Shown: positions 1 to 19,632 of the stretch, piece by piece
Numbering within the stretch: position 1 is the stretch's first letter
Layout of the letters: the number at the start of each line of letters is the position of its first letter
Assembly: GCA_031276195.1 (NCBI GenBank)
Contig: JAISNN010000085.1
Location: forward strand, 1-43,129
DNA length: 43,129 bases
Source: Clostridiales bacterium
Lineage (GTDB): Bacteria; Bacillota; Clostridia; Christensenellales; JAISNN01
Reading direction: 5' to 3'
Notes under the pieces: generated by a model
What the model saw: the letters and a program-made list of their open reading frames with translations, nothing else
The model's database searches: none
Told to the model about the DNA's origin: nothing
Position numbers and translations under genes: made by a program

Positions 1-49
1 TTCCGCTTTTTACCACCTTTACCGACTTGCAATTTTTACATTCTAACAT
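1..49 (-). CDS. Partial zinc-ribbon protein, probable transposase N-terminus
   Basis: Only the first 16 codons are inside the window; the gene runs off the left edge. The ATG is at 47-49 with a GAGGTG ribosome binding site at 55-60. The peptide begins MLECKNCKSVKVVKSG. A CxxC knuckle at the very N-terminus followed by a Lys/Val-rich strand is typical of transposases of the IS1 and IS1595 type, whose zinc ribbon starts in this way. It could equally be another small zinc-ribbon protein. The start is well supported by an excellent upstream promoter; the identity is a guess from 16 residues. Confidence 0.45.
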   Translation of the reverse strand, partial: MLECKNCKSVKVVKSG

Positions 50-79
50 AATAGCACCTCAGAGAACTTATTTTATACT

Positions 80-108
80 ATTATATCATAAATATATCCA
101 TTTGTCAA
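80..108 (-). promoter_or_regulatory. Consensus vegetative promoter for the left-edge gene
   Basis: On the minus strand a perfect TTGACA (103-108) and a perfect TATAAT (80-85) are separated by exactly 17 bases. The start codon of the left-edge gene lies about 30 bases downstream. This is the strongest sigma-A-type promoter seen in the window. Confidence 0.8.
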
Positions 109-109
109 C

Positions 110-455
110 ACTCTCAATATTTTTAGAGTTTATCAGCACGCTACACAGCACGCGGAGGTGAGTGTGCAGATTGTTTTGACTGACCGAATTTTTATGTGTG
201 CCAACCGCTCTTTTGAATCACAAATAAGTGAGACCTCCCGAGTCCGTAAACTTATCTTTGAAAAACGCTATTCATTTTCGTGTTGAGCGGTAAGTCTCTG
301 TCGGTATCCTCGTATTTTTCATCGAGAATGCTTTAATCGTAACGGTTTTATCCTCATCGACACCGACAGCATTTTAGCCTCTTAGCTCTTTCCGCTATCG
401 CTTTTTTAAGCGGTTTTTTTGTTGCGCCGCTACGATGTATTATCTTCCCTTTGTT
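110..455. other. Spacer without a recognisable gene
   Basis: These 346 bases lie downstream of the radical SAM operon and upstream of the left-edge promoter. No convincing open frame is present on either strand. A short minus-strand stretch near 270-375 reads as a coding-like peptide (AVGVDEDKTVTIKAF) but has no start and soon stops, so it may be a gene remnant. I searched here for a Cys-, Thr- or Ser-rich precursor peptide for the maturases and saw none. Confidence 0.4.
392..420 (+). terminator. Possible weak rho-independent terminator
   Basis: CCGCT (392-396) can pair with AGCGG (409-413) and is followed by seven T on the plus strand. The stem is only five pairs. In this orientation it would stop plus-strand transcription, so it is not the terminator of the minus-strand radical SAM operon. 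Confidence 0.35.
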
Positions 456-1388
456 TCAAATTTTTTCTCCTTTAATTGTTTTTAATAAATTGCTTCCCAA
501 ATACTTATAAGCAGAACGCCAAGTTCCACAGCAAATATTTTTAACATCACATTCTGCGCATTCATTATAAAATGTTCCACATTGACTTGCAAATTCTTGG
601 ACGATTTTGTCTTGAAACTCAACATTTGGAGCCATGTAAGTATTTGTACAATTCTTATTGCTAAAATACTTCCAATAATATGGGTCAACAAGGCATAGCG
701 GAGTTTCGATTATTTCTATTCTCCTTGTTCGCCCTCTCTCATTTTGCTCAAAATAATCAAGTGCATTCTCAATGAAAGGCTGAAGTTCTGTATATAAAAT
801 TGCAAGTTTGTCTTGATTCTTCAAAGCTCTACCACAAAAATCCATTACACAAAAACAAATGCTTACTTCTGGAGGAAATGTTTTTGCAATAAAACTACTG
901 TATTCAGTCAATTTTTTATATGAAACCCCATTTAATATATTTTTAATAGTAATTTGGATTCCCTTATCAAGCAAGTTAAATAAGCCGCTAATTGTATTCT
1001 CATGGCTACCTCTTACCCCAGTAATCGCGTCGTGTTCTTCGGCTTTATCTGAATGAATTGCTGTCACTACACTAAATGCTCCCTCTCCAATAGCACTTTT
1101 TATTTTTTTTACATTGTCCTTAGCGGCAAACGTAATTGAATTTGAAAGTAGAGTTATTTTGTAACCTGCCTTGCAAAGGTAATGCATTATCTTTGCAAAA
1201 TCATGATGAAGCGTTGGCTCTCCACCCGAAACAGTAATATGCTGACCAATGTTGTTAATTGTGAGAATAGGATATGCCTTTTTAATCTCATCAAAACTTA
1301 ATGCCTTGTTTAACCTGTCTGCGGTAGTACATGGGCATATAATACAAGCAAGATTACATTTATATCCTAATGCTAAGTACGATGACAT
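456..1388 (-). CDS. Radical SAM protein with C-terminal cysteine cluster
   Basis: The 310-residue protein starts directly with the radical SAM cluster motif: C11, C15 and C18 in KCNLACIICPC bind the 4Fe-4S cluster that cleaves S-adenosylmethionine. GGEP at 55-58 is the SAM-binding motif. The C-terminal third has many further cysteines, including NECAECDVKNICCG, which resembles an auxiliary-cluster (Twitch/SPASM-like) domain seen in peptide-modifying enzymes. The ATG at 1388 has a GGGGAGGATAAC binding site and overlaps the upstream radical SAM gene by 16 bases, so the two are translationally coupled. The absence of any N-terminal extension suggests that it relies on a partner for substrate recognition. 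Peptide maturation is inferred from context; the exact modification cannot be read from the sequence. Confidence 0.85.
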   Translation of the reverse strand: MSSYLALGYKCNLACIICPCTTADRLNKALSFDEIKKAYPILTINNIGQHITVSGGEPTLHHDFAKIMHYLCKAGYKITLLSNSITFAAKDNVKKIKSAIGEGAFSVVTAIHSDKAEEHDAITGVRGSHENTISGLFNLLDKGIQITIKNILNGVSYKKLTEYSSFIAKTFPPEVSICFCVMDFCGRALKNQDKLAILYTELQPFIENALDYFEQNERGRTRRIEIIETPLCLVDPYYWKYFSNKNCTNTYMAPNVEFQDKIVQEFASQCGTFYNECAECDVKNICCGTWRSAYKYLGSNLLKTIKGEKI

Positions 1389-2752
1389 GTTATCCTCCCC
1401 GACATATTGTCTACTGTTTGAGGCTCCGACAAGATCAACTCAATTAATTTCGGATATATGACTTTATTGATAGCACATTCTACCTCATCTATTTCTTCTT
1501 TATTTCCATTGTATCTCCTGCGACTGGCACATCCACCCTTGCAATAATATTCCCATGGACAATTCTCGCATTTTGCTCCTGAATGAACAAAAAAATCGTG
1601 TTGCCTTTTCTTTTCTGCTATCGAATCAAACTCGAATGTGCTATCAAAGATATTTGCAAGTTTTTCATTCGGAAAGTCAAGTGTTTCGCAAGGAAAAATA
1701 TTGCCATCGCAGTCAATTGATATCATTGCCTCCCCGCCTCGGCAACCATTAGATAAGCAAAAATTGTTATTGGTTCTGCTCAGCAAATTCTGCAGACGAG
1801 TAAGAAGATTGTCCTCATTAAAACGAATTCCCATCCGATAATATGCGAATATTGTATCACACAATTCAGCGGCAAACCGCTCTATTTGTACTGTGCTGGG
1901 AGCAAGCCTCGACTCTACAGCATTTGGATTATCTTTAACAATATTAAATTTTACATTTGTTATATTCAAATCATATATATAAAATTGAATTAGATCTTTT
2001 ATTCTGTCAATGTTCATTTTTGTTAGAACATTAATAACGCTAAAATCAACAAAATAATATTTCTTAAGGTTCTTAATCCCTTGTATCACCATTTCGTAGC
2101 TTTTTGAGCCATCTGCTAATCGACGTTGTGCATTATGTGCCTTCTCGTCTCCGTCGATACTGACACCAACCTTAATATTGAGATTCATAAGTTCCTTTGC
2201 TATTGCATCATTAATTAAACTCGCATTCGTTTCGACATCAATACAAACTTCAATACCAGAATTACTAAAGCATTTGCATAGGCTTTTTATCCCTTCAAGA
2301 TATAGCAACGGCTCCCCCCCAAATGCTTGAATCCCAATTTGTTTAATGTCATTTTTTCTACAATAGCCTATAATTTTCATGGCAATTTTTGAAATCGTGT
2401 CACTCGACATTTGGCTATTGGTTAAATGATTTCTAAAACAATACAGACAATTAAAGTTACAGCTTTTTGTGATGTCAATAATAAAATACTTTATCTTAAT
2501 AGGGGCAATTTGCTCACCATGGTGTGCCCCGATAAGAAATCCCCTTTGTATAAGCTTAAAGGCCAGTTGCTCCGAAATCTTATTAATCCTTATCTCTGCA
2601 ACAAACTCTTTATGGAGAATTATTGATTTGCCTTGTTTGTTCAAAAGAAAGCTGTATTCACTCGAATCAGAAAAGACATAAGCCTCTATAAACTCAAATA
2701 TATCACTCGTTAAATAATCTATCGAGAATTTGCCAATTTTCTTATGAGTCAT
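1373..2752 (-). CDS. Radical SAM/SPASM peptide maturase
   Basis: The 459-residue protein has three parts. Residues 1-85 form a small domain (FLLNKQGKSIILHKEF, then LIQRGFLIG) like the leader-binding N-terminus of peptide maturases. Residues about 86-300 are the radical SAM barrel, with C98, C102 and C105 in SCNFNCLYCF and GGEP at 145-148. The C-terminus is a SPASM domain with cysteines in NGCRGGE, IDCDGNIFPCE and CENCPWEYYCKGGC, which bind auxiliary clusters. This architecture is shared by anSME-type, sactipeptide, ranthipeptide and His-Xaa-Ser maturases. The ATG at 2752 has a GGGAGG binding site and overlaps the preceding small gene by four bases. It ends in TAG with a second in-frame TAG two codons on, so this amber codon is a genuine stop. 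Confidence 0.88.
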   Translation of the reverse strand: MTHKKIGKFSIDYLTSDIFEFIEAYVFSDSSEYSFLLNKQGKSIILHKEFVAEIRINKISEQLAFKLIQRGFLIGAHHGEQIAPIKIKYFIIDITKSCNFNCLYCFRNHLTNSQMSSDTISKIAMKIIGYCRKNDIKQIGIQAFGGEPLLYLEGIKSLCKCFSNSGIEVCIDVETNASLINDAIAKELMNLNIKVGVSIDGDEKAHNAQRRLADGSKSYEMVIQGIKNLKKYYFVDFSVINVLTKMNIDRIKDLIQFYIYDLNITNVKFNIVKDNPNAVESRLAPSTVQIERFAAELCDTIFAYYRMGIRFNEDNLLTRLQNLLSRTNNNFCLSNGCRGGEAMISIDCDGNIFPCETLDFPNEKLANIFDSTFEFDSIAEKKRQHDFFVHSGAKCENCPWEYYCKGGCASRRRYNGNKEEIDEVECAINKVIYPKLIELILSEPQTVDNMSGRITCHRT

Positions 2753-3018
2753 TCTACCATGCCTCCCTGAACTAACGCGACAAAAATATTTTCGGCTTCT
2801 TTACAATCACTCTGAAGCAAACGCTTAAACTCAGCTTCTTCAATTCCCTTTCTAATTGCATTATCAATAGCCAAAATTTCTAATTGCCCACCTTTCAATA
2901 GAATCGTTTTTCCGTTAATTTGATTAACAAAATGCATGCCTTCAGCAGCATATTTTGTCCCAGCGTAAGGAGATAAAAAAATAAGATTAATATTTTCCTT
3001 GTTGTATTTGACTTGCAT
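2749..3018 (-). CDS. Small PqqD/RRE-like protein
   Basis: This 89-residue protein has no clear named family. Its C-terminal two-thirds (NGKTILLKGGQLEILAID, a Glu-rich helix, EFKRLLQSD, ENIFVALVQGGMVE) follow the pattern of PqqD-type RiPP recognition elements: a short beta-strand pair, then winged-helix helices ending in a strand after a Gly-Gly turn. Such proteins bind the leader of the precursor peptide and present it to the radical SAM enzyme. It starts 4 bases after the kinase-like gene and overlaps the next gene by four bases (ATGA), so it is made with the two maturases. The alternative that it is itself the substrate is less likely because it has only one Cys and no repeated or core-like tail. 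Confidence 0.5.
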   Translation of the reverse strand: MQVKYNKENINLIFLSPYAGTKYAAEGMHFVNQINGKTILLKGGQLEILAIDNAIRKGIEEAEFKRLLQSDCKEAENIFVALVQGGMVE

Positions 3019-3022
3019 GATT

Positions 3023-4048
3023 TTATGAATTACTCCAATTTGTATTCTCGTTTATATAACGCAGTTTATTAGCAAATTCACCACAACTAATTTTTAAACC
3101 ATAAGAGCTATTGCTTAATACTTCGGAAATCAAATGCATTAAACATTCCTGCCTTGTTGATGACCAATGTTGTAATTTTGCACTCGCAAACTTATAAAAT
3201 GTTTTTTCATCATCCTTCTCAAATCGATAATCCGATAACTTTAGTAGCAACATCTTAGCAATGCAGCATAAATCGCTATGCACACCAATGTTCAAATTAT
3301 CACTTTGCATTAATTCTTTAGGTGCAGTTTCTGGTGAGCAACGAAATTTAGAAGTCTTTGAAATCTTGTTCAGCAATACAATACTATCAAAATCCACCAT
3401 ACGAACTTCAACAATGTTATCCATATCTTTAACAAGATAATTTGATGATTTAATATCTACCATTAACCAACCTAACTTGTGCATTTCCTCCGTCATACTT
3501 GCAATTGATACGCACACTGACAAAATGTGCTCGATAGTTTCATTTTTGAGTTTATCCCATGCAACTCCGTCTTCATGTAAGGACAAAGTGTACAACGTTC
3601 CATTCCCTCTATAGCATCCGCGTAACTTCACAATACAACTTGAAATATTAGGGAAACCACACAATTGCTGTGCAACTTTTGCGGCGAAAACAAAGCGACG
3701 CGCTTCTTTTTTCCATTCTATCCATGAACACAATGTTTTTTTGAGTCTTACAGAGGAATCAACACGAGTAATCAAGCCTTTTTCATACATCCCCTCAGGA
3801 AAAAACTCTTTTAAAACACATTTCACATCAAGCACATCAACTAAATAAGCGAATAGATTATACCCAACGCCGATTAGACTATTGACTACGACCTCGATCT
3901 TTTCATTTCCACGCAAACTGATTTTTACACCATTGCGCAAAGACATTGCATCGCGATTCATTGTGGTTATTTGTACCCATTCCTTAATTGATATTCTGGC
4001 GTTCTTAAACACTTCCAGTCCAACTTTTGAAAATTCCTCACTCCTCAA
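3023..4048 (-). CDS. Protein-kinase-like enzyme of the maturase operon
   Basis: The 341-residue protein keeps the key parts of a eukaryotic-like Ser/Thr kinase. A glycine loop (IGVGYNLFAY, about 59-68) is followed by the ATP-binding Lys K80 in VLKEFFPEG, a context close to the KEYFP signature of bacterial kinases. The catalytic loop reads LMVDIKSSNYL with D198, K200 and N203; the metal-binding DFD is at 219-221; an activation segment (CSPETAPKE, 237-245) and a D259-centred helix follow. The HRD histidine and arginine are replaced (LMVD). All phosphotransfer residues are present, so it may be active. Operon position suggests that it phosphorylates the peptide or a partner. The start is uncertain: TTG at 4048 follows the antiterminator stop by three bases but lacks a good binding site; an ATG at 3961 is an alternative. 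Confidence 0.75.
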   Translation of the reverse strand: MRSEEFSKVGLEVFKNARISIKEWVQITTMNRDAMSLRNGVKISLRGNEKIEVVVNSLIGVGYNLFAYLVDVLDVKCVLKEFFPEGMYEKGLITRVDSSVRLKKTLCSWIEWKKEARRFVFAAKVAQQLCGFPNISSCIVKLRGCYRGNGTLYTLSLHEDGVAWDKLKNETIEHILSVCVSIASMTEEMHKLGWLMVDIKSSNYLVKDMDNIVEVRMVDFDSIVLLNKISKTSKFRCSPETAPKELMQSDNLNIGVHSDLCCIAKMLLLKLSDYRFEKDDEKTFYKFASAKLQHWSSTRQECLMHLISEVLSNSSYGLKISCGEFANKLRYINENTNWSNS

Positions 4049-4051
4049 AAA

Positions 4052-4597
4052 TTACTTTAAATCTTTCGCTATCGCATGAATTATTTCCAACCCGACCGTC
4101 ATTTCACTTATCGCTCCGAAGAACTCAATTTCAATTACGGCTTGTCGCTTGTGTTTGTTTATTCTTTTGATGATGCTTTCCTTGCCCGTTAGTGCGCCGG
4201 CGGTGACAACTATTTTGTCACCCTCTGCAAATCCCACCGAAGTTTCTATGCACCGCTTGTCGCCTATCAGGTATTGCAACGCTCTCTGCTCGTCCTCGCT
4301 TACCGCTATGCGCTCCGAATCGCCGTAGCCCAAAATGCGAATGACGTGGCTTGAGGTTTTTACGAAGACATCTGTCGTTTCCTAAAACCGCTTGCTGTCC
4401 ATCGTGGTTTCGATGAATACATAGCCGGGGAACAGTAACTCCGATTCCAATTTGTCCTTGCCGCCCTTGCGAAACTTGCGCTCGCTCTTGGGTGCGAACG
4501 GCTTGAAATCGAGTCCTTTGAAACGAGTCTTTATCGCTTCAATCACCATGTTTTCGCGCGCCGCCTTTACGAACAGCACATACCAATAAAACGACAA
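4052..4597 (-). pseudogene. loaP: LoaP/NusG-type antiterminator interrupted by an in-frame TAG
   Basis: Read through one TAG codon at 4382-4384, this is a 182-codon frame (181 residues plus the final TAA) with the layout of LoaP, a specialised NusG paralogue. The first part is an NGN domain (SFYWYVLFVKAARENMVIEA, then LLFPGYVFIET); the second, in the same frame with no other defect, contains SSHVIRILGYG, YLIGD and a KOW-like domain (GFAEGDKIVVTAGALTGKES). The start is TTG at 4597, chosen because AAGGAGG at 4603-4609 sits five bases upstream; the longer GTG frame from 4648 has none. LoaP proteins are known to prevent termination in long antibiotic operons, so its place as first gene suggests control of the downstream maturase genes. 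The TAG may be a decay mutation, a sequence error, or suppressed. It is not certain that the gene is dead. Confidence 0.7.
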
Positions 4598-4609
4598 ATA
4601 AACCTCCTT

Positions 4610-5041
4610 GAGGCTACGACTCCGCCAATGCCGTTTGTTAAACGTCACGCGGAAGGATTTGTATGAACCCTACCCTACGCTACCGCGACCCGCCGACAGT
4701 AGTTTTGGATAAGTAATTGAGGGGGTGTCCAATAGCAAAACGGCAAGGAGTTCGCGCCCGTCTTGTCGTTTATTCGGTCATCTTTCGCACAGTTAGTATC
4801 TATACGAAGTTTGCATAATTCAAACGGCTCAAAATCGTTCGGCAACGGAAAATTTTGATGTTGAAATGCCGCTCCGGTTGTTGTACACTTGATTACGAGG
4901 TGTCGGAGGGTGTCGAAAGAGGTGCCAAGCAAAAAAAATATGTTTTTTTGTCGATAGAGAGTAAAAACGCTTGCAATTGCTCGCGTTTTGTTGTATATTT
5001 ATAGATGTTCAATATGCGTATATACTAACTGTGCGAAGTCG
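4610..5041. other. Leader or spacer upstream of the antiterminator
   Basis: About 430 bases separate the antiterminator from the integrase end. LoaP-controlled operons usually carry a leader RNA hairpin in such a place, but I could not identify one by eye. No clean promoter pair was found. A weak 85-codon minus-strand frame at 4675-4932 opens with TTG without a ribosome binding site and is not reported as a gene. Confidence 0.4.
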
Positions 5042-5069
5042 GCGGCTAAAAAATAGTAGCCGCTTTTTT
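5042..5069 (+). terminator. Hairpin with T-tract at the integrase 3' end
   Basis: GCGGCTA (5042-5048) pairs perfectly with TAGCCGC (5057-5063), followed by six T on the plus strand. It would stop plus-strand transcription entering the integrase gene from the left. On the minus strand the hairpin includes the integrase stop codon but has no U-tract. Confidence 0.55.
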
Positions 5070-6011
5070 GTTGCAGAAATATGCGTTGAGCATACTCATC
5101 CCTTTGATTTTCTGTTCTGTTAGGCTGTGAACGTAGCGATTGATTGTTATGGTTGAGTTAGCGTGGCCGAGGATTTCGCTCACGCTTTTGATGTCCATGC
5201 CGATTTCTATCGCCCTTGACGCGAATGTATGCCGGGTTGTGTGGTAGCCGCGATAAGCCACGCCCGCAGATTTGAGCAACTTTGCGTATATCATCTGCAA
5301 GGTTCGCGGATGAACATGCCGACCGTCCGGCATCGCGATTACGTGCCGGCCGTTGCTTTCCGCTCTTGCTTTCAATAGCAATTCACGGAGAAAATCAGTC
5401 AGCGGAATCATTCGCTTTGCGTTTGCCGTTTTCGGTTCTTGTTCGAGCATGACCGTTTTATTCTTGCCGCCGTTTTTGTTCTCGGCGCGGTTCAGCGACT
5501 TTTTGATGTTTATGACTTTGCTCTCGAAGTCGATATTCTCCCACCGCAGACCGCATAGCTCACCTATCCGCAGACCCGTATAAAGGCTTATAATTACACC
5601 CAAGGTTCGATTGTCATCCGACTGCTCTATCGCCGCTTCGATTCGGCTCTGCTCCTCTTGTGTGAACACGTCCACCTCTTTCTCCACGACTTTCGGAAGC
5701 CGCATTCTAACGCACGGATTCTTGCTTATATACTCATAGTCGGCGGCACACTGAAGCGCGCTCGACAGCATTAAGGCAATCACTCGGACAGTCTTTGCCG
5801 CAAGCCCTTTGTCGTCCGTACTCAGCGTGTGGACAAATTGCTGTATCGTCATAGGCTTTATTTCGCCAAGCCTGCAACCGCCCAACAGCCGTTTGATATG
5901 ATTATCGATGTACCCTCGGTATGCCGTGTAGGTGTTAAATCTCACATTCTCGCGGATAGCCGTTTCTACCCACCAGTCCAAGAATTCGTTAAGTGTGCTT
6001 TGCTCGTTCAT
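5046..6011 (-). CDS. int: Tyrosine recombinase (integrase)
   Basis: This 321-residue integrase has an N-terminal SAM-like DNA-binding domain (about 5-95) and a C-terminal catalytic domain. The catalytic set is visible: R148 in YTGLRIGEL, H257 and R260 in YHTTRHTF, H283 in LGHANSTI, and the nucleophile Y293 in NRYVH. The size and motifs are those of Tn916/phage-type integrases of Firmicutes, lacking the usual extra N-terminal arm-binding domain. It would catalyse insertion and excision of the accessory segment. The ATG at 6011 has an AAAGGAGAT binding site which lies inside a long hairpin (see 6019-6086). It ends in TAG. No excisionase or relaxase is visible, so the element is small or decayed. 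Confidence 0.93.
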   Translation of the reverse strand: MNEQSTLNEFLDWWVETAIRENVRFNTYTAYRGYIDNHIKRLLGGCRLGEIKPMTIQQFVHTLSTDDKGLAAKTVRVIALMLSSALQCAADYEYISKNPCVRMRLPKVVEKEVDVFTQEEQSRIEAAIEQSDDNRTLGVIISLYTGLRIGELCGLRWENIDFESKVINIKKSLNRAENKNGGKNKTVMLEQEPKTANAKRMIPLTDFLRELLLKARAESNGRHVIAMPDGRHVHPRTLQMIYAKLLKSAGVAYRGYHTTRHTFASRAIEIGMDIKSVSEILGHANSTITINRYVHSLTEQKIKGMSMLNAYFCNKKAATIF

Positions 6012-6018
6012 ATATAAA

Positions 6019-6086
6019 AATCTCCTTTGGCGATATTCGCCCGCCGCCTATAAGCCGGCAAACAAAGCATATCGTCAAAGGAGATT
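6019..6086 (-). promoter_or_regulatory. Hairpin hiding the integrase ribosome binding site
   Basis: In minus-strand RNA the segments 6086-6069 and 6036-6019 are complementary over 18 bases with a single A-C mismatch. The 3' arm contains the whole AAAGGAGAT binding site of the integrase, and the start codon lies seven bases further. Folding would block translation. This would silence integrase mRNA that is read through from upstream while leaving open control by an event that disrupts the 5' arm. Confidence 0.7.
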
Positions 6087-6252
6087 AAAGTCTACGGGAA
6101 ACGCCCTCGAACATAAAAATTAACAACTGGAAATGGCAATCGGCTCTATATCAAAAACAAAGAGACGGCATTTTTTTAGAGAATGTTGGCTCAACCTGAT
6201 TGCCGTCATTTGTCAGCTTTTTGTGTTTTAATGAAAAACCTCCCAATCCCTA

Positions 6253-7586
6253 CTATTTCAGAATAACCCAATGCCCCTTCGAGCCTCCGACCCGTTTTAT
6301 GAAACCTTTCTCTTTCAGCCCGTCAAGGCTACGGTATACTGCTCTGATTGACTTCGCAACCTTGCCGGTAATCGCTTCTGCGGTGATTCTGTCATCCTTT
6401 TTGATTAGCTTGTAAATCACGAGTTCGTTATCGTCAAGAAACTCTTCCGCCGTAGTTCCGGATATCGGGTTCAGTAACGTCCGCCCGAATTCAAAGGTGA
6501 AGCTTTGTACGCCGTCGCTATATGCCACCTTAACGTCGGTCTCAGCGCATAGCGAAAAAACCTTGCGGAAACCCGTACCGTATTCTTCAATGCGGTTTGT
6601 CTTGTACAGCACATCGGTAATTATCGGATTTTTTAGCACTGACTTTAATCTCCCGCCGGCGTATTCCTCCGGATTTACGGTTTCAGGCAGATTGCCCGGA
6701 TTGAAAATATCAATCTGGCTTGGATACACGTCAATTTCATGCGCCGTAACGATATGCTCATATCGGGCATGGACGAACGAGTTAATGACAATTTCGCGGA
6801 CAGCGTCAACGGGAACTTCCGGAATATCGCGGCGGACTTCCTCGGTTATCTCGGCGCACCAACGCATGTGCTTATGAACAAACAATCTCCCCGCCTTAAT
6901 ACAATCATAAATATTTCCGCGAAAATGCTCTTGGGCTAAAAGGGTTATTCTCTCATCGGTCGCAAATAACGCGAGTTTGAGCATGACCGGTTTATGCTTT
7001 GCAAACAGCACGACGCCCGCGTTCGTGAGCCTCCCCGAACGTAATAAATTTAATTTTGTCAGTACGGTTGCCGCGTCGCTGTAAGGCTCGGAAAGGCGTT
7101 TTACTTCCGCGCCCTATTTGTATGCGGATATCAAAGTTTCCCCGTCGACGTCGTCAAGCGTGTACTCGGTCAGCGCGTTTTCCCAGTCCTCGTAAGTCGG
7201 GGACTGCGCTTTTATAAGGTCAACCAATTGCGCTTGCGTGATAGATTTATCTTCATCGGCGGCGCGGATATAATATCGGCCGTCAGCCGAATACGGCGTT
7301 TCTTTTCCGTCAAACGTCACTTTGATAACCGTTTTTCCACCAACCTCAACGGTTTCAATTTCAAAATACGGCATCGGTTTCACACGCTCATAAATACGGC
7401 TTGAACTATCGCGCGTGGTATCCTTGCCGATTTGGTGTCCAATCACTTTACCGTCGTTCGTTACGCCGAGATACAACTCGCCTTTCTTATGCTTGTTGAG
7501 TATTGCGCTGATTGAAATACAGCCTCATTTACTTCCGCAACTGACTTTTTGAACTCTAAGCGTTCATTCTCATACCCTAATTCCAT
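6253..7586 (-). pseudogene. Broken AlbA/HATPase-domain transcriptional regulator
   Basis: Three pieces of one gene lie in order. From the ATG at 7586 (AAGGAGAAC binding site) the frame encodes MELGYENERLEFKKSVAEV, the start of a Schlafen/AlbA_2 domain. Near 7515-7520 one base is missing; the next frame continues ILNKHKKGELYLGVTNDGKV as the family expects. A TAG at 7114-7116 then interrupts an otherwise continuous frame, which resumes as LTKLNLLRSGRLTNAGVVLF and runs through the C-terminal HATPase_c_4 domain (VREIVINSFVHARYEH, GNLPETV, EYGTGFRKVF) to a winged helix (AITGKVAKSIRAVYRSL). The family (COG2865, once annotated as RecG-like) comprises regulators with nucleic-acid-binding domains. Two separate lesions make decay the best reading. 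A fragment from GTG at 7011 remains open for 252 codons. Confidence 0.85.
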
Positions 7587-7842
7587 AAGATGTTCTCCTT
7601 TTAACTGCCATTTTAACTGACATCGGCTTGGCAGTCAAATCAACCGATTTAGGCTGTTAGACTGCCAAATCGGCGCGTTCACTGCCGCATAACTGCCATT
7701 ATACACGATTATTTTCCGGATGTCAATCTCTTTGACTGCCAAAGGTATGTGCGCTTAAATGCGTTGTCAAACAAAATCCAATAGGCTGAACGTTGGATAC
7801 CGCCATTCGTGTAAGTGTTTATCTGTTCGCGGTAATTTATGC

Positions 7843-8055
7843 TTAACGGCTATTCGACGTTCCATTTTCGCCTCGCCGCTCTTCGCAAAGCGCGGACAAA
7901 CCCTCTTCGCGATAAATCCGCATCCACGAAAGAACCACCTTCTTATCGGCTGCGCCAAACTCTTTCGCGGCAATCTTCGCGCCGTACTTATGCTCTAACA
8001 TCCATTCGATTACTTCTTGCTTGAATTTACCGTCATACTTCCTATTCTTCCCCAT
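7843..8055 (-). pseudogene. IS3-family transposase OrfA fragment
   Basis: This 70-codon frame encodes the N-terminal helix-turn-helix of an IS150-group OrfA: KYDGKFKQEVIEWML, then KIAAKEFG and VLSWMRIYREEGLSAL. Normal OrfA proteins are 100-170 residues; this one leaves the family after EERRG and ends, so the rest of OrfA and the whole OrfB catalytic part are missing. The ATG at 8055 has a GGGAGCGG binding site, and TATAAT lies just upstream at the expected place between the terminal inverted repeat and the gene. It cannot be an active transposase. Confidence 0.75.
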
Positions 8056-8124
8056 ACTTCCGCTCCCTTCTTTTCTATTATATCATAATCTTTTTCCTCT
8101 GTCCAACTCTTGGGGCGCGGTACA
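7843..8124 (-). mobile_element. 5' remnant of an IS3-family (IS150-group) insertion sequence
   Basis: The terminal inverted repeat is at 8100-8124 and reads TGTCCAACTCTTGGGGCGCG on the plus strand, close to the usual IS150-group end. The OrfA fragment follows internally. No matching right-hand inverted repeat or OrfB sequence is visible to the left of 7843, so the element is truncated. It marks the right limit of the accessory segment in this window. Confidence 0.65.
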
Positions 8125-8243
8125 CGGGAGGGGATAAAGAAGCGGAGATTAAACGGAATGAATTTTGAATAGCGGATTTTTTAGATAGAAACCGAATTGT
8201 TTTTGCGGGCAATTCCCTTTTATTAAGGATAAATTATGCCTAT

Positions 8244-8280
8244 AAAAAACTCCTCTCTCAAAATGAGAAAGAAGTTTTTT
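8244..8280 (-). terminator. Rho-independent terminator
   Basis: In minus-strand RNA ACUUCUUUCUC pairs with GAGAGAGGAGU (with G-U pairs) around a short loop and is followed by six U. It lies just downstream of the orphan gene at 8291-8806. The plus strand also has T after the stem, so it may work in both directions. Confidence 0.7.
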
Positions 8281-8290
8281 CGCTTTTATT

Positions 8291-8806
8291 TTAAATATCC
8301 GTCCGACATTTTTCCCATGCGTCCGGCAAGAGGTATGTATAAAACTGCCGAGAGCCGCCCAATTTTCCTCCCGCGTTTTTCTTGACCCATTTCACTATTC
8401 GGTTATGAAACTCCTCTAAGTCCTTTTTAAACTCCCCATATCCGTTCTTTTCACAATCAAACACAGCGGCGCAAGTATTTAAATAAAATCTGCCGTAGAA
8501 CTCGTTTGCGGCGGGCATCGTCTGCCGTCTTCGAAATTCTACGAGCGGTCCGTCCCACAAATTCCCGACATAAAACCCTCCGTAAATATCTTGTTTTATC
8601 AAGGGTTTAAACGAAAATTTTTTATTCAGTATGTAGTATTGTCCGTATTTGTCCGCGTCCGCAAATTCGTCGTGATAAAAATCCGCCTCGTCGGCGGTGT
8701 CAATGGGTCCGCAGACGATCAGTTTAAAGTCGAAATTTTCTCTTAAAAACATCAAAAACGATTTTTCGTCCTCATTCGTCATAACGACCATAATTTGACG
8801 TCCCAT
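8291..8806 (-). CDS. Protein of unknown function
   Basis: I do not recognise this 171-residue protein. It is soluble, rich in Asp, Phe and Tyr, with no signal peptide or membrane segment. The first 35 residues (QIMVVMTNEDEKSFLMFL) look like a small alpha/beta unit in which a strand is followed by a helix, and the middle contains YIL, GGFYVGNLWDGPLVEF and a helix-rich C-terminus (KKDLEEFHNRIVKWVKKN). Lone soluble genes with this look are common among toxin-immunity and phage-related proteins, but nothing next to it supports that. The ATG at 8806 has AAGGAG ten bases upstream, and a terminator follows the gene, so it is a single transcription unit. Confidence 0.6.
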   Translation of the reverse strand: MGRQIMVVMTNEDEKSFLMFLRENFDFKLIVCGPIDTADEADFYHDEFADADKYGQYYILNKKFSFKPLIKQDIYGGFYVGNLWDGPLVEFRRRQTMPAANEFYGRFYLNTCAAVFDCEKNGYGEFKKDLEEFHNRIVKWVKKNAGGKLGGSRQFYTYLLPDAWEKCRTDI

Positions 8807-8961
8807 AGAACCGCCGCTCCTTTTTGTTGTATTTTTTAAGCTCGTATCCGTTTATAAACATTACGATTACGACACTTTTTCAAATAATACGGCATATCAA
8901 AAATCTCTTAAAAACAACTAAAATCCCAACGAATCGGCATTATTTCTATTTAAAATATCGT

Positions 8962-9300
8962 GTCAACGCCTTTCCGAAACACGGCGTACTCAAAAAAAAA
9001 CTGCGCCCGAATAAAAAAACTCCCTTGTTTTGAACATCAAGTCAACGCCTTTCCGAAACACGGCGTACTCAAAAAAAAACTGCGCCCGAATAAAAAAACT
9101 CCTCTGTTTTGAACATCAAGTCAACGCCTTTCCGAAACACGGCGCACTAAAAAAAAACTGCGTCCGAATAAAAAAACTCCTCTGTTTTGAACATCAAGTC
9201 AACGCCTTTCCGAAACACGGCATACTCAAAAACTCTCGCGCTCCGGATAAAAAACGCCTTTATTTTGAATATTCCGTCAACACTTTTCCGAAATACAGCG
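8962..9300. repeat. 4.5 tandem copies of a 78-79 bp unit derived from a gene 3' end
   Basis: Units begin with GTCAACGCCTTTCCGAAACA at 8962, 9041, 9120, 9198 and 9276. The first three steps are 79, 79 and 78 bases, the last 78. The final unit (9276-9300) overlaps the last codons of the flavin reductase, so the array consists of degenerate copies of that gene's 3' end plus its downstream sequence. Copies are more than 90 percent alike by eye except the one in the gene. There are no spacers, so it is not a CRISPR array. Confidence 0.92.
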
Positions 9301-9739
9301 TATGAAAATCCCTTGTTTGGTACAGTTTTGTAAATTTCATAGCGATTTCGTCGGTTATGGGAATTTTTGCGATCACCTTACATTCATAATAGTAGTCGCA
9401 ACCGTTGACGACGTATGTATCGACTTCTTTCGCTTTTACGGTTAAGAGGTCGGTTTCTTGAAACTTATTGCAGTTTCTCCCGCTATGCGAGCCGCAAAAA
9501 GCCAATTCTTTGCCGAGTTTGTCGAACGGTACGCTGACGGTAAACTCATCCGACGCATCGAGTTTGGTTTTCGTATATCTGGAATCTCTGACGGGGACGA
9601 GGAAGATTTTCTGTCCCCACAGAACGCCCGTCATGCCCCAACTGATGGTCATAACGTTCGGCGATTTTCCAGAGATCAAAAACGCGCCGCCGTTAGTCAA
9701 GCGGTTGAGAATTTTGTCCGCGCTGTTAAATTCAAACAT
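9260..9739 (-). CDS. Flavin reductase family protein (flavoredoxin-like)
   Basis: This protein of about 159 residues has the FMN-binding split-barrel fold of the DIM6/NTAB family. The conserved pattern is clear: GGAFLISGKSPNVMTISWGMTGVLW (the FMN-contact strand-turn), then VPVRDSRYTKTKLDASDEFTVS, and C-terminal FHTLYFGKV. Such proteins reduce or bind flavin for partner oxidoreductases. I chose the ATG at 9739 rather than a longer frame starting at 9799 because GGAGAGG lies just upstream and the protein then begins MFEFNSADKI at the domain boundary. The 3' end is the source of the tandem array at 8962-9300. No operon partner is evident. Confidence 0.85.
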   Translation of the reverse strand: MFEFNSADKILNRLTNGGAFLISGKSPNVMTISWGMTGVLWGQKIFLVPVRDSRYTKTKLDASDEFTVSVPFDKLGKELAFCGSHSGRNCNKFQETDLLTVKAKEVDTYVVNGCDYYYECKVIAKIPITDEIAMKFTKLYQTRDFHTLYFGKVLTEYSK

Positions 9740-9799
9740 TGTATTACCTCTCCGTATATACTCGCCGCCCCCGCAAAAAAACGTATCGCGGCAAGTCAA

Positions 9800-10230
9800 T
9801 TTTTTTTAGAATTCTTTGTCGTAAATCGGCAAGTTCGTTTTTAGAATTTTTCTATTTATATTAAAAAGTTCGCTTTTTTAGAATGTGTTTCACAAACCGG
9901 TAAATCCTTTTTTTAGAGTATTTATACCGTTTTACTTTCAAGACAAATCGATTGTATTTTTTCGTCAATCACCTTTAAAATGAGATCAAAATTATTTTCC
10001 AAGAACGGTATTATTATAAGATTATCTCCCCGTTTATCGCTTAGTTTCTTTCTGTATATAAAACACAATCCCCCTCTTTTGTTTGACAGCCAAAACGGAT
10101 AAACGGAAAACGGCCGTTAACCAATCACTAACAAATAGCCGCCGCTAACCATTAGCGTCCGCGATCTAATATAACTGCCTTAACCGATCGCTAAATAATC
10201 GCTAATCACTAACGCTTATCTAACCGACCG
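9800..10230. other. AT-rich spacer with degenerate short repeats
   Basis: No gene is visible. Between 9810 and 9925 a loose repeat of AAGTTCG/TTTTTAGAAT type recurs about three times. Between 10095 and 10225 the minus strand repeats TTAGCGATCGGTTA-like units that begin at the stop codon of the signal peptidase gene, a weak case of the gene-end amplification seen elsewhere. Confidence 0.5.
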
Positions 10231-10926
10231 CTATTTGAGCCATATCTTTATCGTTTTTGTCTTTTCTCCGTCTTTTATATCGCGCATGATCAAAAACGCC
10301 CGTCCGTGGATTGTTTCCTCTTTGAATTCGCCGAAAGTACGGCTGTCCGCGCTGATTGTTCTATTGTCACCCAAGACAAAAACACACCCGTCCGGTACGA
10401 TCCCTCCGTTTTCGTATTTCGACCGTGACTGTACCGAATCGCCGCGCCTATATTTAGTCCCTTCGTATATCTTTTCCTCCTTATCATCATCATTATCTCC
10501 TTTACCTTCGTATATCTTACTGCCAAAAGGAAGATCATAATGCTTTGTATAGTTCTCCTCAATCTTTTCGCCGTTGACATAGACGAAGCCGTCGCCCGGG
10601 ATTTTCACCTCGTCGCCCGCCAGCGCGATCACTCTTTTTATGATATATTTATCGCCCTTTTCGGGGTTATATTCCGGGTTGTCCAGCCGCACTATATCGC
10701 CCGCTTTGACCTTTCCGAAGTTCCAAAGATAAACCCTGTCGTTTTCGATAAGGGTATTTTCCATAGAGATTCCTTTGACCTGCGTTACGGTAACGACGTA
10801 TTCTCTCACGACGACCGAGGCTCCGAAAGCCATCATAATAACGAACATAATTATGAGCAAGTCAAAGATTAAAGTATTTCTCGCCGTCTTTTTTTGCGGC
10901 GCGGGTATCGTATTAACGTTATTCAT
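10231..10926 (-). CDS. lepB: Signal peptidase I
   Basis: The 231-residue type I signal peptidase cleaves secretory signal peptides at the outer membrane face. A single N-terminal membrane segment (about 18-42, FDLLIIMFVIMMAFGASVVV) anchors it. Box B contains the nucleophile S54 in VKGISMENTL; box D contains the general base K97 in YIIKRVIALAGD; box E is GDNRTISADSRTFG. The length is near that of Gram-positive enzymes. A charged insert (about 140-165, with GDNDDDKEEK) lies between boxes D and E and is flanked by two copies of KIYEG, so it looks like a local duplication. The gene stands alone on the minus strand. Confidence 0.95.
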   Translation of the reverse strand: MNNVNTIPAPQKKTARNTLIFDLLIIMFVIMMAFGASVVVREYVVTVTQVKGISMENTLIENDRVYLWNFGKVKAGDIVRLDNPEYNPEKGDKYIIKRVIALAGDEVKIPGDGFVYVNGEKIEENYTKHYDLPFGSKIYEGKGDNDDDKEEKIYEGTKYRRGDSVQSRSKYENGGIVPDGCVFVLGDNRTISADSRTFGEFKEETIHGRAFLIMRDIKDGEKTKTIKIWLK

Positions 10927-10956
10927 CTGCGGGATTTAATCTCCTTAAATACATCG

Positions 10957-11306
10957 TTTCTTCGGTCATTTTTATTATTTTCGCGTTATTTTCGCGTTAT
11001 TTTTACGCTATTTTCGCATTGTTTTTATGCCGTTTTTAGGCTGTTTTCGCGCTATTTTCACGCTATTTTCACGTTGTTTTCACGCTATTTTTACGCTGTT
11101 TTCGCGCTGTTTTTAGGCTATTTTCGCGCTGTTTTTACGCTATTTTTACGTTGTTTTTATGCTATTTTCACGTTGTTTTCGTGCCGTTTTCGCATTCTTT
11201 TTATAATATTTCTTATCGTTTTACGACCGTTTTTTTATCATTTTTTGTGTTATTTTTTATTGTTTTTCCGCTCTTTTTTATTCCGCGTTTTTAAATACGC
11301 GGCGTT
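10957..11306. repeat. Spacer of degenerate ~11 bp tandem repeats
   Basis: From about 10970 to 11215 the plus strand repeats units such as TTTTCGCGCTA, TTTTCACGCTA and TTTTTACGCTG roughly twenty times. The long plus-strand open frame across it is a product of the repeat and is not a gene. The rest is T-rich and empty. Confidence 0.8.
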
Positions 11307-12944
11307 TTATACGAACAAAATATTGTTGAATATAACCCCTTCCGCATCGTCGATTTCCAAAATTTTCGCCTCCGCGAAACTCTCCAACGGGCTTAAAGAC
11401 GCGTCCTTAAACATACGCGGTTCGATAGAAATTCTCCGCCATTCCGCGCCACCCTGAACGTTTACGGGGCAGGTATATTTTTTTTCGCCGTCCTCTCCGC
11501 GCGTATGCAAGGATATATAAAAATCCTTATCGACCGTCGTATATACGTCGGCTTGAATCGCCGCGACGTTTCCGTCCGTGTCGCAGCCGCCTATGCTGTA
11601 ATTCAAAATTCCTCCGTCGGACGCCATAATGCCCTTGATCCCGTACGCGCCCGCGGCGGTTTGCGCGCCGCCCGAAACGATCAATCCGCGTCCTTTCGGA
11701 AAAAAGTTCACGCCCGTCTCGCCCGAATATACGACGCGGTTTTTAAAGCCGCCGTCCTCGTCTAAGCCGCGCGCGTCGAGCCTTAGGGCGTACTCTCTCG
11801 ACGAAATCAAATCGCCGTCGGCGTAAGATATATTCGCGAAAGCAAAAATTATCTTGGCGCGGGGCGTTACGGGCAGCCGCGCGATAAATTCGCCGTTCGC
11901 CGTTTCCTCGGCTTTTACGCTTTTCCATTCGCGGAAAAACGGTTCGGTATCCGTCGTGCTGTAATATACAACCGGCGGTTCTATACCGTCGAAATCGGGC
12001 GTCGTTACGTTGAAATAATACTTGCCGCCGCTCCTTACGATCTCGCCCGCGGGCGTGCTTTTCGGCGGAATTTTCAAGGGGATATTTTCAATCCATTTAA
12101 AGAGATTTTCGGCGGCTTCAACCGATATGCAATCCTGCATTTGCGCCCCGACGATCATTTTTTTCTCTCCCGGAAAGATGCCGAATAGATCCGCCGCTCT
12201 GTCAAAATCGCCGTATGAGCCGTTGGTCGAGAGGAGCATCAAGACGGGTTTATCTATAAATTTCGCGTATGTCTGCGCGTCCGCTCCCGCGATAAAGCAT
12301 TGTCTTTCCTCGTCGATTACGAGTTCTTTTTTGCCGTATTTATATATGCCGCCGTAAGCGGAATAGCCGCTTCCGAATATGGTCGCAAGCCCCGAAAAAA
12401 GCGGATCTATACCGCCCATAAACGCCGCTCCGCAAGCGGACGCTTCGCCGATCAAGATTATATTTTCCGAGCCGTATTCGGTCTTGACGAAGTAGGCGGC
12501 GCGGCGCAAAATTTTTGCCCAGACATACCGGGACGTGTGCTTTGCGTCGGGTTCGGCGAAAGCGTACGCGCGCGATTTTTCGTCGGGGACGCCGAAAGAC
12601 AAACTTTTCGGGTATGACGTGCGGTGTTCGCCGTCCTTAAAGCCGAAATCTATATCCGCGACGAGATTTCCGCGTTCGGCTAAACTCCTCGTCATAACCT
12701 TATCGCTTCCGCGAAAGAGGTCGCCGGCATAGACGACGGCGGTTTTCATATCGCAGCCGCGCTTAAAAGACAGGGAGCAAAAAACTCTGACCTCGCCGTC
12801 TCCCGTCTTTTCCGATGTAAAATATATCTTTCGATTAACTATGCCGTCGTTCTCCGATTCGCCGACCGCGGCGGTCTCCGTCGGAACGGCGTCGGGGATA
12901 TAGTCCGCCCAGAGTTTTGACAGCGTCATAAAATTATATTCCAT
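11307..12944 (-). CDS. Large alpha/beta-hydrolase-like protein of unknown function
   Basis: This 545-residue cytoplasmic protein has no clear family that I can name. Residues about 1-290 look like an alpha/beta-hydrolase core: strands such as KTAVVYAGD, GNLVADIDFG and ENIILIGEASACGAAFMGG, then GLATIFGSGYSAYGG and KPVLMLLSTNGSYGDFDRA, which resemble the strand-turn-helix and late acid loop of acetyl-xylan-esterase or PhoPQ-regulated folds. The nucleophile elbow is not canonical: GEASACG lacks the GxSxG spacing, so it may be inactive. Residues about 300-385 look like a beta-sandwich (YYFNVTTPDFDGIEPPVVYY), and the C-terminal 160 residues like a carbohydrate-binding beta-sandwich (GAEWRRISIEP). 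A sugar-related role is a guess. A good promoter lies upstream. Confidence 0.6.
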   Translation of the reverse strand: MEYNFMTLSKLWADYIPDAVPTETAAVGESENDGIVNRKIYFTSEKTGDGEVRVFCSLSFKRGCDMKTAVVYAGDLFRGSDKVMTRSLAERGNLVADIDFGFKDGEHRTSYPKSLSFGVPDEKSRAYAFAEPDAKHTSRYVWAKILRRAAYFVKTEYGSENIILIGEASACGAAFMGGIDPLFSGLATIFGSGYSAYGGIYKYGKKELVIDEERQCFIAGADAQTYAKFIDKPVLMLLSTNGSYGDFDRAADLFGIFPGEKKMIVGAQMQDCISVEAAENLFKWIENIPLKIPPKSTPAGEIVRSGGKYYFNVTTPDFDGIEPPVVYYSTTDTEPFFREWKSVKAEETANGEFIARLPVTPRAKIIFAFANISYADGDLISSREYALRLDARGLDEDGGFKNRVVYSGETGVNFFPKGRGLIVSGGAQTAAGAYGIKGIMASDGGILNYSIGGCDTDGNVAAIQADVYTTVDKDFYISLHTRGEDGEKKYTCPVNVQGGAEWRRISIEPRMFKDASLSPLESFAEAKILEIDDAEGVIFNNILFV

Positions 12945-13019
12945 GCTTTTTCCTTAAACTTCCGATTTCGGCTTCCGCGCAAAATACCGCATATTCTCCG
13001 TGTAATATATTATGTTGTT

Positions 13020-13048
13020 ATTATACCATAAATCCCGCGCTTTGACAA
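13020..13048 (-). promoter_or_regulatory. Promoter for the hydrolase-like gene
   Basis: On the minus strand TTGTCA (13043-13048) and TATAAT (13020-13025) are 17 bases apart, about 75 bases upstream of the ATG at 12944. The remaining spacer 13050-13377 holds no gene. Confidence 0.65.
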
Positions 13049-13377
13049 TGCCTATCCGAAAGTTTTTTATCTTTTTTGAAAATTTTTTTCCGCTTATGCC
13101 GTTTCGCGTTTAGAATCGCGTTAAAAATATACGGTTTTACCCGTCTTTTTTCGGAACAACGCTTAAACGCATACATAAAAACGCATTTATCCGTTCGCCG
13201 CTTTCCGTTTTTTCCTCATAATTCTCCATAATTTCCGGCATAATTTGAACAACGGAACAATACAATATATAGCTGTATAATATATAGCGGTTAAACTTTG
13301 GAATCAAAACATACGTTTGATTTTAAATTGGTATATCGGTATTCCCGATAGGGTTTTTAAGGAGCGGAACAAAATTT

Positions 13378-13629
13378 ATGGATTTGACGTTCGGCGAACT
13401 TCGCGAAAAAGAAATCATAAACATTGCCGACGGGAAAAAACTCGGCAGACTGATCGACGTCGTGATGACGGGGACGGGAAAGATATTGGGGTTTGTCGCG
13501 CCCGGCGAACGAAAACTCTTTAAGGGCGGCGCGGACAACAACATTTTTGTTCCGTGGTGCAACATCTGCAAGATCGGAAACGACGTTATTTTGGTCGAAT
13601 TGGGCGCGAACCTCCCCGCGGAATTATAG
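13378..13629 (+). CDS. ylmC: YlmC/YmxH family PRC-barrel sporulation protein
   Basis: The 83-residue protein is a single PRC-barrel-like domain: FGELREKEIINIADGKKLGRLIDVVM is followed by GKILGFVAPGERK and the conserved FVPWCNICKIGNDVILVEL. The length and the WxxIxKIGxDVILV motif match the YlmC/YmxH family, found in spore formers and made in the mother cell in Bacillus. Its biochemical role is not known. The ATG follows AAGGAGCGG at a usual distance. It stands alone, with a terminator directly downstream. Confidence 0.9.
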   Translation: MDLTFGELREKEIINIADGKKLGRLIDVVMTGTGKILGFVAPGERKLFKGGADNNIFVPWCNICKIGNDVILVELGANLPAEL

Positions 13630-13652
13630 AAATCATTTAACATATACGCGTT

Positions 13653-13686
13653 AAAAATACGCGCTTTATTTACCGCGTATTTTTTA
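13653..13686 (+). terminator. Rho-independent terminator of ylmC
   Basis: AAAATACGCG pairs with CGCGTATTTT around a nine-base loop and ends in a run of six T, 24 bases after the ylmC stop codon. Confidence 0.8.
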
Positions 13687-13995
13687 ATTTTTCCGCGGTT
13701 CTGTACCGCCGTTTTTTTGGATTTTTTCTGCCTTTTTAGATATGTATTTTTCATTTTTCCGCGGTTCTGTATATCCGTTTTTTTGAATTTTTTTATACCT
13801 TTTTTAAGTATGTATTTTTTAATTTTTACGCGGTTCTGTATCTCCGTTTTTTTAGATTTTTTCTGCCTTTTTTAGATATGTATTTTTCATTTTTACGCGG
13901 TTCTATACCGCCGTTTTTTTGGTTTTCATACGCTTTTATATCGTATTTTTTAAAACTTTATTTCTTTCTTTTCAGAACGGATTTTTTAGTTTTTA
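13687..13995. repeat. Four degenerate tandem units carrying the CGGTTCTATACCG palindrome
   Basis: Units of about 67 bases repeat four times. Each contains a version of the palindrome (13693-13711, 13759-13777, 13828-13846, 13895-13913) followed by seven or more T and then a T-rich stretch with TTTTTCTGCC and AGTATGTATTTTT. The first and last keep a good hairpin; the middle two have lost pairing (TATATCCG, TATCTCCG). No gene is present from 13687 to 14073. Confidence 0.85.
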
Positions 13996-14073
13996 TATCG
14001 CGTGTTTTTTTGGTTTTCATACGCTTCTATCCCGTATTTTTTGATTTTTTTGTCGAAAACAATCGAAAATCGT

Positions 14074-14103
14074 TTGACTTTACCCTATATCATAAGTTAT
14101 TAT
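14074..14103 (+). promoter_or_regulatory. Promoter of the purine permease gene
   Basis: TTGACT (14074-14079) and TATTAT (14098-14103) are 18 bases apart on the plus strand, about 50 bases before the start codon. The short leader leaves no room for a purine riboswitch. Confidence 0.6.
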
Positions 14104-14153
14104 ATATAATATCCTAAAAAGGATAAAAATAATTTTAAGGAGAAATTTTGTCT

Positions 14154-19500: not shown

Positions 19501-19586
19501 CCAAAATCTCCGTTTGTTTTTTATTTTTCCCTTCTTGTGATATTCCCTTCTTTCCTTGTTTTATTCGTCTTCACGTATGAGGGCGG

Positions 19587-19617
19587 CTTTTAATCCGTAC
19601 GGTGTACGGATTAAAAG
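19587..19617. promoter_or_regulatory. Perfect hairpin between glgA and glgP
   Basis: CTTTTAATCCGTAC (19587-19600) and GTACGGATTAAAAG (19604-19617) pair over 14 bases with a three-base loop. It sits in the 130-base gap of the operon. On the minus strand no U-tract follows, so an RNA-stability or processing role is more likely than termination; a regulator-binding palindrome is also possible. Confidence 0.6.
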
Positions 19618-19632
19618 TTTAATTAGTATAAT

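Follow-up and report, generated by a model that had tools for sequence, protein, structure and literature searches.

We analysed a 43,129-nucleotide contig, hereafter the window, from a Clostridiales bacterium of the order Christensenellales (GenBank assembly GCA_031276195.1, contig JAISNN010000085.1), near one end of which four intact frames form a single tight array on the minus strand. From upstream to downstream these encode a kinase-like protein with a protein-kinase fold (3023-4048, 341 aa; its start codon is uncertain, TTG at 4048 or a later codon), a small protein without a family match that we call P89 (2749-3018, 89 aa), a radical S-adenosylmethionine (SAM) protein of the SPASM peptide-maturase type, rSAM_B (1373-2752, 459 aa), with its CNFNCLYC motif and SPASM cysteines intact, and an HxsC-like radical SAM protein, rSAM_C (456-1388, 310 aa), with CxxxCxxC at residues 11-18 and a C-terminal CxxCx5C. 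The frames overlap by 16 bases (rSAM_C/rSAM_B) and 4 bases (rSAM_B/P89), with a 4-base gap between P89 and the kinase-like gene. Further upstream lies a frame for a LoaP-type antiterminator (4052-4585, minus strand), which has a TTG start after AAGGAGG and whose codons stop 3 bases short of the kinase frame; it is interrupted by an in-frame TAG at 4382-4384. An earlier, first-pass annotation of this DNA had described five tight minus-strand genes, which holds for the four but not for LoaP. Just upstream of the cassette a tyrosine recombinase/integrase gene (5046-6011, minus strand; Phage_integrase E 9e-28) suggests a mobile island, and downstream a non-coding stretch (120-455) separates rSAM_C from one end of an IS1-like insertion element (1-119, minus strand). 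An Rfam scan of window positions 1-9000 gave no match.

The same four genes recur elsewhere. A search with rSAM_C across 396 genomes of the order returned one ortholog (E 5e-63, 35-36 % identity), in genome G898 from another family of the same order. At this locus (G898:C108, hereafter L108) the order kinase-P89-rSAM_B-rSAM_C matches that of the window, with the kinase at 593-1588 (29 % identity, 125 bits), a P89-like open reading frame (ORF) in the corresponding position at about 1587-1844, start uncertain (19 % identity), rSAM_B at 1848-3209 (34 % identity, 282 bits) and rSAM_C within 3166-4179 (35 % identity, 214 bits). Among 391 genomes of the class, the next-best kinase reaches 43 bits, and no other match to rSAM_C in our samples exceeds 87 bits. 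Because the four-gene order recurs in another family, the arrangement is not due to chance, and because it does so at 29, 19, 34 and 35 % identity, the cassette has been kept as a unit over long divergence. The gene-order search that the first-pass annotation had proposed thus finds kinase and radical SAM genes together in a second genome.

The cassette is nevertheless rare. No further rSAM_C ortholog occurs in 250 genomes of the G898 family or in all 17 of its genus, rSAM_C has no close relative in 399 genomes of the phylum, neither it nor the kinase has one in the 391 class genomes, and five congeneric genomes lack the kinase. Single-protein and steered-alignment scans found no ortholog in viral_contigs and none among the matches listed from genome_contigs (the steering alignments, A2-A5, contain invented rows that served pattern choice only and are not evidence), and plasmids and phages yielded generic SPASM or Hxs relatives only. 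Several candidates were set aside on inspection: a full-length Paracoccus yeei plasmid radical SAM protein (26 % identity) neighbours a HEXXH protein, with no kinase or HxsC; loci L013/L015 and L109 look Hxs-type, with two radical SAM genes and no kinase; and L014 and L020 carry unrelated radical SAM genes.

L108 also supplies a candidate substrate. Beginning 37 bases past the rSAM_C stop, with a AAAGGAGG site and an ATG, an 89-aa precursor reads MDKLQVFSKKLGSAMELSFATAGGTDHIVRS and then SSWLNSGWSNYSDSWLNSGWNNYSYSWQNNGWNNYSSGWVNSGWSNYGSWSNGGWSNGK. It has a leader-like N-terminus, is rich in repeats and lacks Cys; its core, rich in Ser and Tyr, consists of tandem S-x-S-W-x-N-S-G-W-x-N-Y units. 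All 10 of its Trp residues lie in W-x-N motifs, a count that never arose when the core was shuffled 20,000 times. Its sole family hint, GrrA/OscA at E 0.42, is not significant. Aro-Xaa-Asn repeats are a mark of cyclophane precursors (PMC9062424), and triceptide enzymes crosslink Trp to the Asn at i+2 (PMC11002830). This W-x-N repeat peptide is the probable substrate of the L108 cassette. A peptide-modifying system had been predicted from the window genes, and the repeat-rich small ORF that adjoins their orthologs agrees with that prediction; the accompanying suggestion that the kinase or P89 might itself be the target becomes unnecessary because the precursor has been found in L108.

Radical SAM peptide maturases are a main source of new peptide crosslinks. 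The two here are, as first annotated, different proteins that both match Radical_SAM (E 6e-15 for rSAM_C, 1e-15 for rSAM_B). Like the maturases of triceptide pathways (OscB/GrrM, XncB, YhhB), rSAM_B carries a SPASM domain (E 3e-4, exactly at the SPASM cut-off) and, in L108, stands beside a repeated Trp-x-Asn precursor; it also has an N-terminal extension of about 85 residues. The closest families to it are peptide maturases, including several that form cyclophanes, and all score far under their cut-offs: PapB (127 bits), anaerobic sulfatase maturase (123), DynA (122), HxsB (111), YhhB (99) and GrrM (92). For the named three-residue-cyclophane-forming enzyme families, the scores compare with cut-offs of 310 bits (GrrM/OscB) and 445 bits (YhhB). 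Its relatives of solved structure are the anaerobic sulfatase-maturating enzyme together with further radical SAM proteins. Unlike triceptide loci, the cassette adds an HxsC-like radical SAM protein, a kinase-like protein and P89, and its crosslink is only predicted.

The second maturase raises the alternative of a divergent His-Xaa-Ser (Hxs) system, with rSAM_B as HxsB, rSAM_C as HxsC, P89 in place of HxsD and the kinase as an accessory. The first-pass annotation had likened the pair to the two-maturase sets of such systems, and the comparison is apt: two different radical SAM genes adjoin, HxsC is the best family for rSAM_C (122 bits; 127 for its ortholog), rSAM_B matches HxsB over most of the model, and the two-maturase pairs of the Hxs-like loci L015 and L109 are among the nearest relatives. 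The scores nonetheless fall far below the HxsC (267.9 bits) and HxsB (370 bits) cut-offs, P89 matches no HxsD or other NCBIfam model, and the L108 repeats are W-x-N rather than His-Xaa-Ser. A kinase is present, and B precedes C in the cassette, in contrast to C before B in L015 and L109. We regard an Hxs identity as improbable.

The kinase-like protein was annotated as having all phosphotransfer residues, which is true of the window copy, where K80, D198, K200, N203 and D219 (in DFD rather than DFG) are present; its Pkinase match (E 1e-5) lies below the family cut-off. The sole ortholog, however, has Arg at the position of K80, the beta3 Lys (VLRE, against KE after two hydrophobic residues in the compared kinases), and in both proteins the DFG motif reads DFD or DLD. 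Kinase homologues without conserved residues are partners in the kintamdin and thioviridamide pathways (PMC9415263), and, since the ortholog's VLRE lacks the beta3 Lys, a binding role seems at least as likely as phosphorylation. A kinase that phosphorylates Ser, Thr or Tyr of the peptide, yielding a phosphopeptide or a dehydration as in class III/IV/V lanthipeptides, would fit the catalytic Lys, Asp and Asn and the metal Asp retained in the window protein, the Ser- and Tyr-rich core, and the best family of the L108 kinase, the kinase domain of class IV lanthionine synthetases (E 3e-9). We consider such a step unlikely, given the Arg and the altered DFG motif, the lack of a recognisable lyase or cyclase gene in the window locus or L108 and a precursor that offers no Cys for thioethers. 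The earlier proposal that a radical reaction is coupled to phosphorylation stays conjectural and is weakened by the Lys-to-Arg change.

P89 had been called PqqD-like, that is, a recognition element (RRE) of ribosomally synthesized and post-translationally modified peptides (RiPPs), an assignment that finds no support. It matches no PqqD/RRE profile and nothing in Pfam, NCBIfam, PHROG or the PDB sequences, and hhalign against radical SAM N-terminal domains gives a probability of 4 %. A single-sequence AlphaFold2 model shows the E-E-E-H-H-H order that an RRE would have, at a predicted local distance difference test score (pLDDT) of 43 that makes it unusable. Similarity to the L108 ORF reaches a score matched in 16 of 2000 shuffles, and orthology rests mainly on position. 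P89 is possibly a leader-binding partner of the RRE or winged-helix kind.

We propose, with moderate confidence, that the four intact genes constitute a maturation cassette for a radical-SAM-modified ribosomal peptide, or for a protein with the same repeat tract, and that in L108 the substrate is the W-x-N peptide. All chemical steps, like the parts assigned to P89 and the kinase, are our inference from homology and gene context. On triceptide precedent (Trp-Asn at i+2, Aro-Xaa-Asn repeats), rSAM_B would be the likeliest crosslinking enzyme, most likely joining each Trp to the Asn two residues on, along the repeats, to give three-residue cyclophanes. rSAM_C may add a second radical modification or aid rSAM_B; substrate binding would fall most likely to P89 and to the N-terminal extension of rSAM_B; and the kinase-like protein may either phosphorylate Ser or Tyr in the repeats or act as a catalytically weak, precursor-binding partner as in thioviridamide- and kintamdin-type pathways.

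Several points weigh against this proposal. rSAM_B scores under the cut-offs of all named cyclophane maturases, and the L108 kinase has Arg for the beta3 Lys. The comparison rests on a single orthologous locus, so that only two loci, both from draft assemblies, are available. Two further radical SAM proteins of L108, encoded downstream of the precursor at 4648-5694 and, with a SPASM domain, at 13569-14963, could be the W-x-N-peptide enzymes instead. Finally, the window's own genome has yielded no W-x-N substrate, and its enzymes might act on another motif.

Among known systems, the cassette resembles radical SAM RiPP maturation but cannot be assigned to the Hxs systems, the GrrM/OscB triceptide systems, the LanKC/LanL systems or the LoaP-controlled operons, because it misses each at a defining feature. 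Kinase-fold proteins occur in RiPP pathways of the lanthipeptide and thioamitide types. The cassette shares such a protein with the class III/IV lanthipeptide synthetases LanKC and LanL, its ortholog being nearest the LanL kinase domain, and with the KinD/KinH and TvaE partners (PMC9415263). Unlike all of these, its 341-aa kinase, which falls short of the LanKC/LanL cut-offs, matches the kinase domain only, stands alone without lyase or cyclase and is paired with radical SAM enzymes. We found no class in the open-access literature that combines a kinase-like protein, two radical SAM proteins and W-x-N repeats, in agreement with the first-pass annotation, and we know of no described class with this combination.

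We then turn to the window copy, in which, as first noted, no substrate is encoded. Three-frame translation of positions 1-455 reveals no precursor-like ORF where L108 has its precursor, and the assembly, 94 % complete, yielded no match to the L108 precursor and no WxNxxWxN pattern. At the matching position the contig (C17 of its assembly, G000) breaks inside the insertion element, of which it retains the transposase start (MLECKNCKSVKVVKSG...) and a TTGACA-17-TATAAT promoter at 108-80 on the minus strand. Window 1-119 recurs at the end of C18, at the start of C49 and at C88:14207-14321, C88 holding a full-length copy of ~793 bases at about 13529-14322. The element is multi-copy, with 8-base target duplications (AAACTTTT, AATAATAA), and causes several contig breaks; it was traced to C17, C18, C49, C53, C33, C57, C28 and C88. 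The target-site duplications pair C53 with C49 and C28 with C18, and the C17 copy is unmatched among the contigs found. A precursor beyond the element was sought on contigs with its other end (C33, C57), which run into housekeeping genes. Because the insertion element and contig break occupy the expected position, they better explain the missing precursor; the cause may be an IS-linked rearrangement or a neighbour missing from the assembly. The window copy seems to end at the mobile element, with the peptide gene lost.

The LoaP frame points the same way. Model NF033641 is matched by two separate halves of the frame (model positions 1-65 and 84-165), so that no intact frame spans NGN and KOW. 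Of 36 long open frames in the window (not all of them genes), 13 close with TAG, among them rSAM_B; recoding is rejected, since rSAM_B and other long genes terminate at this codon and the window contains no suppressor tRNA. Because TAG serves as an ordinary stop in this genome, the break is real: the codon is a nonsense codon, and there is no fifth intact gene. The cassette is like LoaP antiterminator operons in that a LoaP-type gene heads it, and unlike them in that the frame is TAG-interrupted, so that service of the operon by LoaP is not supported; L108 has no LoaP in the 0.6 kb sequenced upstream. A gene at 6253-7500, ATP-binding regulator-like by inspection of its sequence, likewise has one in-frame TAG, at 7114-7116, and alongside LoaP would be a sign of island decay. 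Since the substrate gene is missing from its expected place, an insertion element stands there and LoaP is broken, the window cassette is probably an orphan in decay that arrived with a mobile island.

Alternatively, the window copy might function in trans: its target would be a host protein or a substrate that is unlinked and carries another motif. The four frames have stayed open despite the broken LoaP, and our substrate searches covered linked or W-x-N candidates only. The decay picture (the insertion element at the precursor site, LoaP, the second TAG-cut gene and the missing kinase in congeneric genomes) makes a working copy a rather unlikely prospect, and we favour the decaying orphan.

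Elsewhere in the window, short tandem repeats at 8824-9112 on the plus strand translate as NAFPKHGVLKKKLRPNKKTPLF, and long in-frame low-complexity insertions or extensions (for example NGGIEARxx and KEKNAAINAESKAK) occur in housekeeping proteins at 31234-32550 and 16750-21930, as well as at L139 and L149; by inspection these proteins are RecF-like, glycogen phosphorylase and synthase, and others.

The wider L108 locus offers more context. After its third radical SAM gene, and up to 11279, come genes for a U32-like protein, an AMP-ligase (with AmcH among its matches), an acyl carrier protein and a group 1-type glycosyltransferase; the genes at 4648-11279 possibly encode further tailoring enzymes. 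A 625-aa protein (11691-13565) precedes the fourth radical SAM gene, which is followed by a second TIR protein. This 625-aa protein repeats 161 bases of the precursor core at 93 % DNA identity and has 13 W-x-N motifs in a 106-residue tract flanked by a Band 7-like N-terminus and a TIR domain. We therefore raise, as a doubtful idea, that the cassette modifies W-x-N tracts not only in the small peptide but also in this large multidomain protein. With its concrete substrate, L108 is a test set small enough to express. The core copy in the TIR protein raises the question of such chemistry on signalling or defence proteins; if the idea were true, the radical SAM enzymes and their kinase-like partner would be tailoring a tract with a structural or sensing function in a TIR signalling protein, instead of, or besides, making a natural product.

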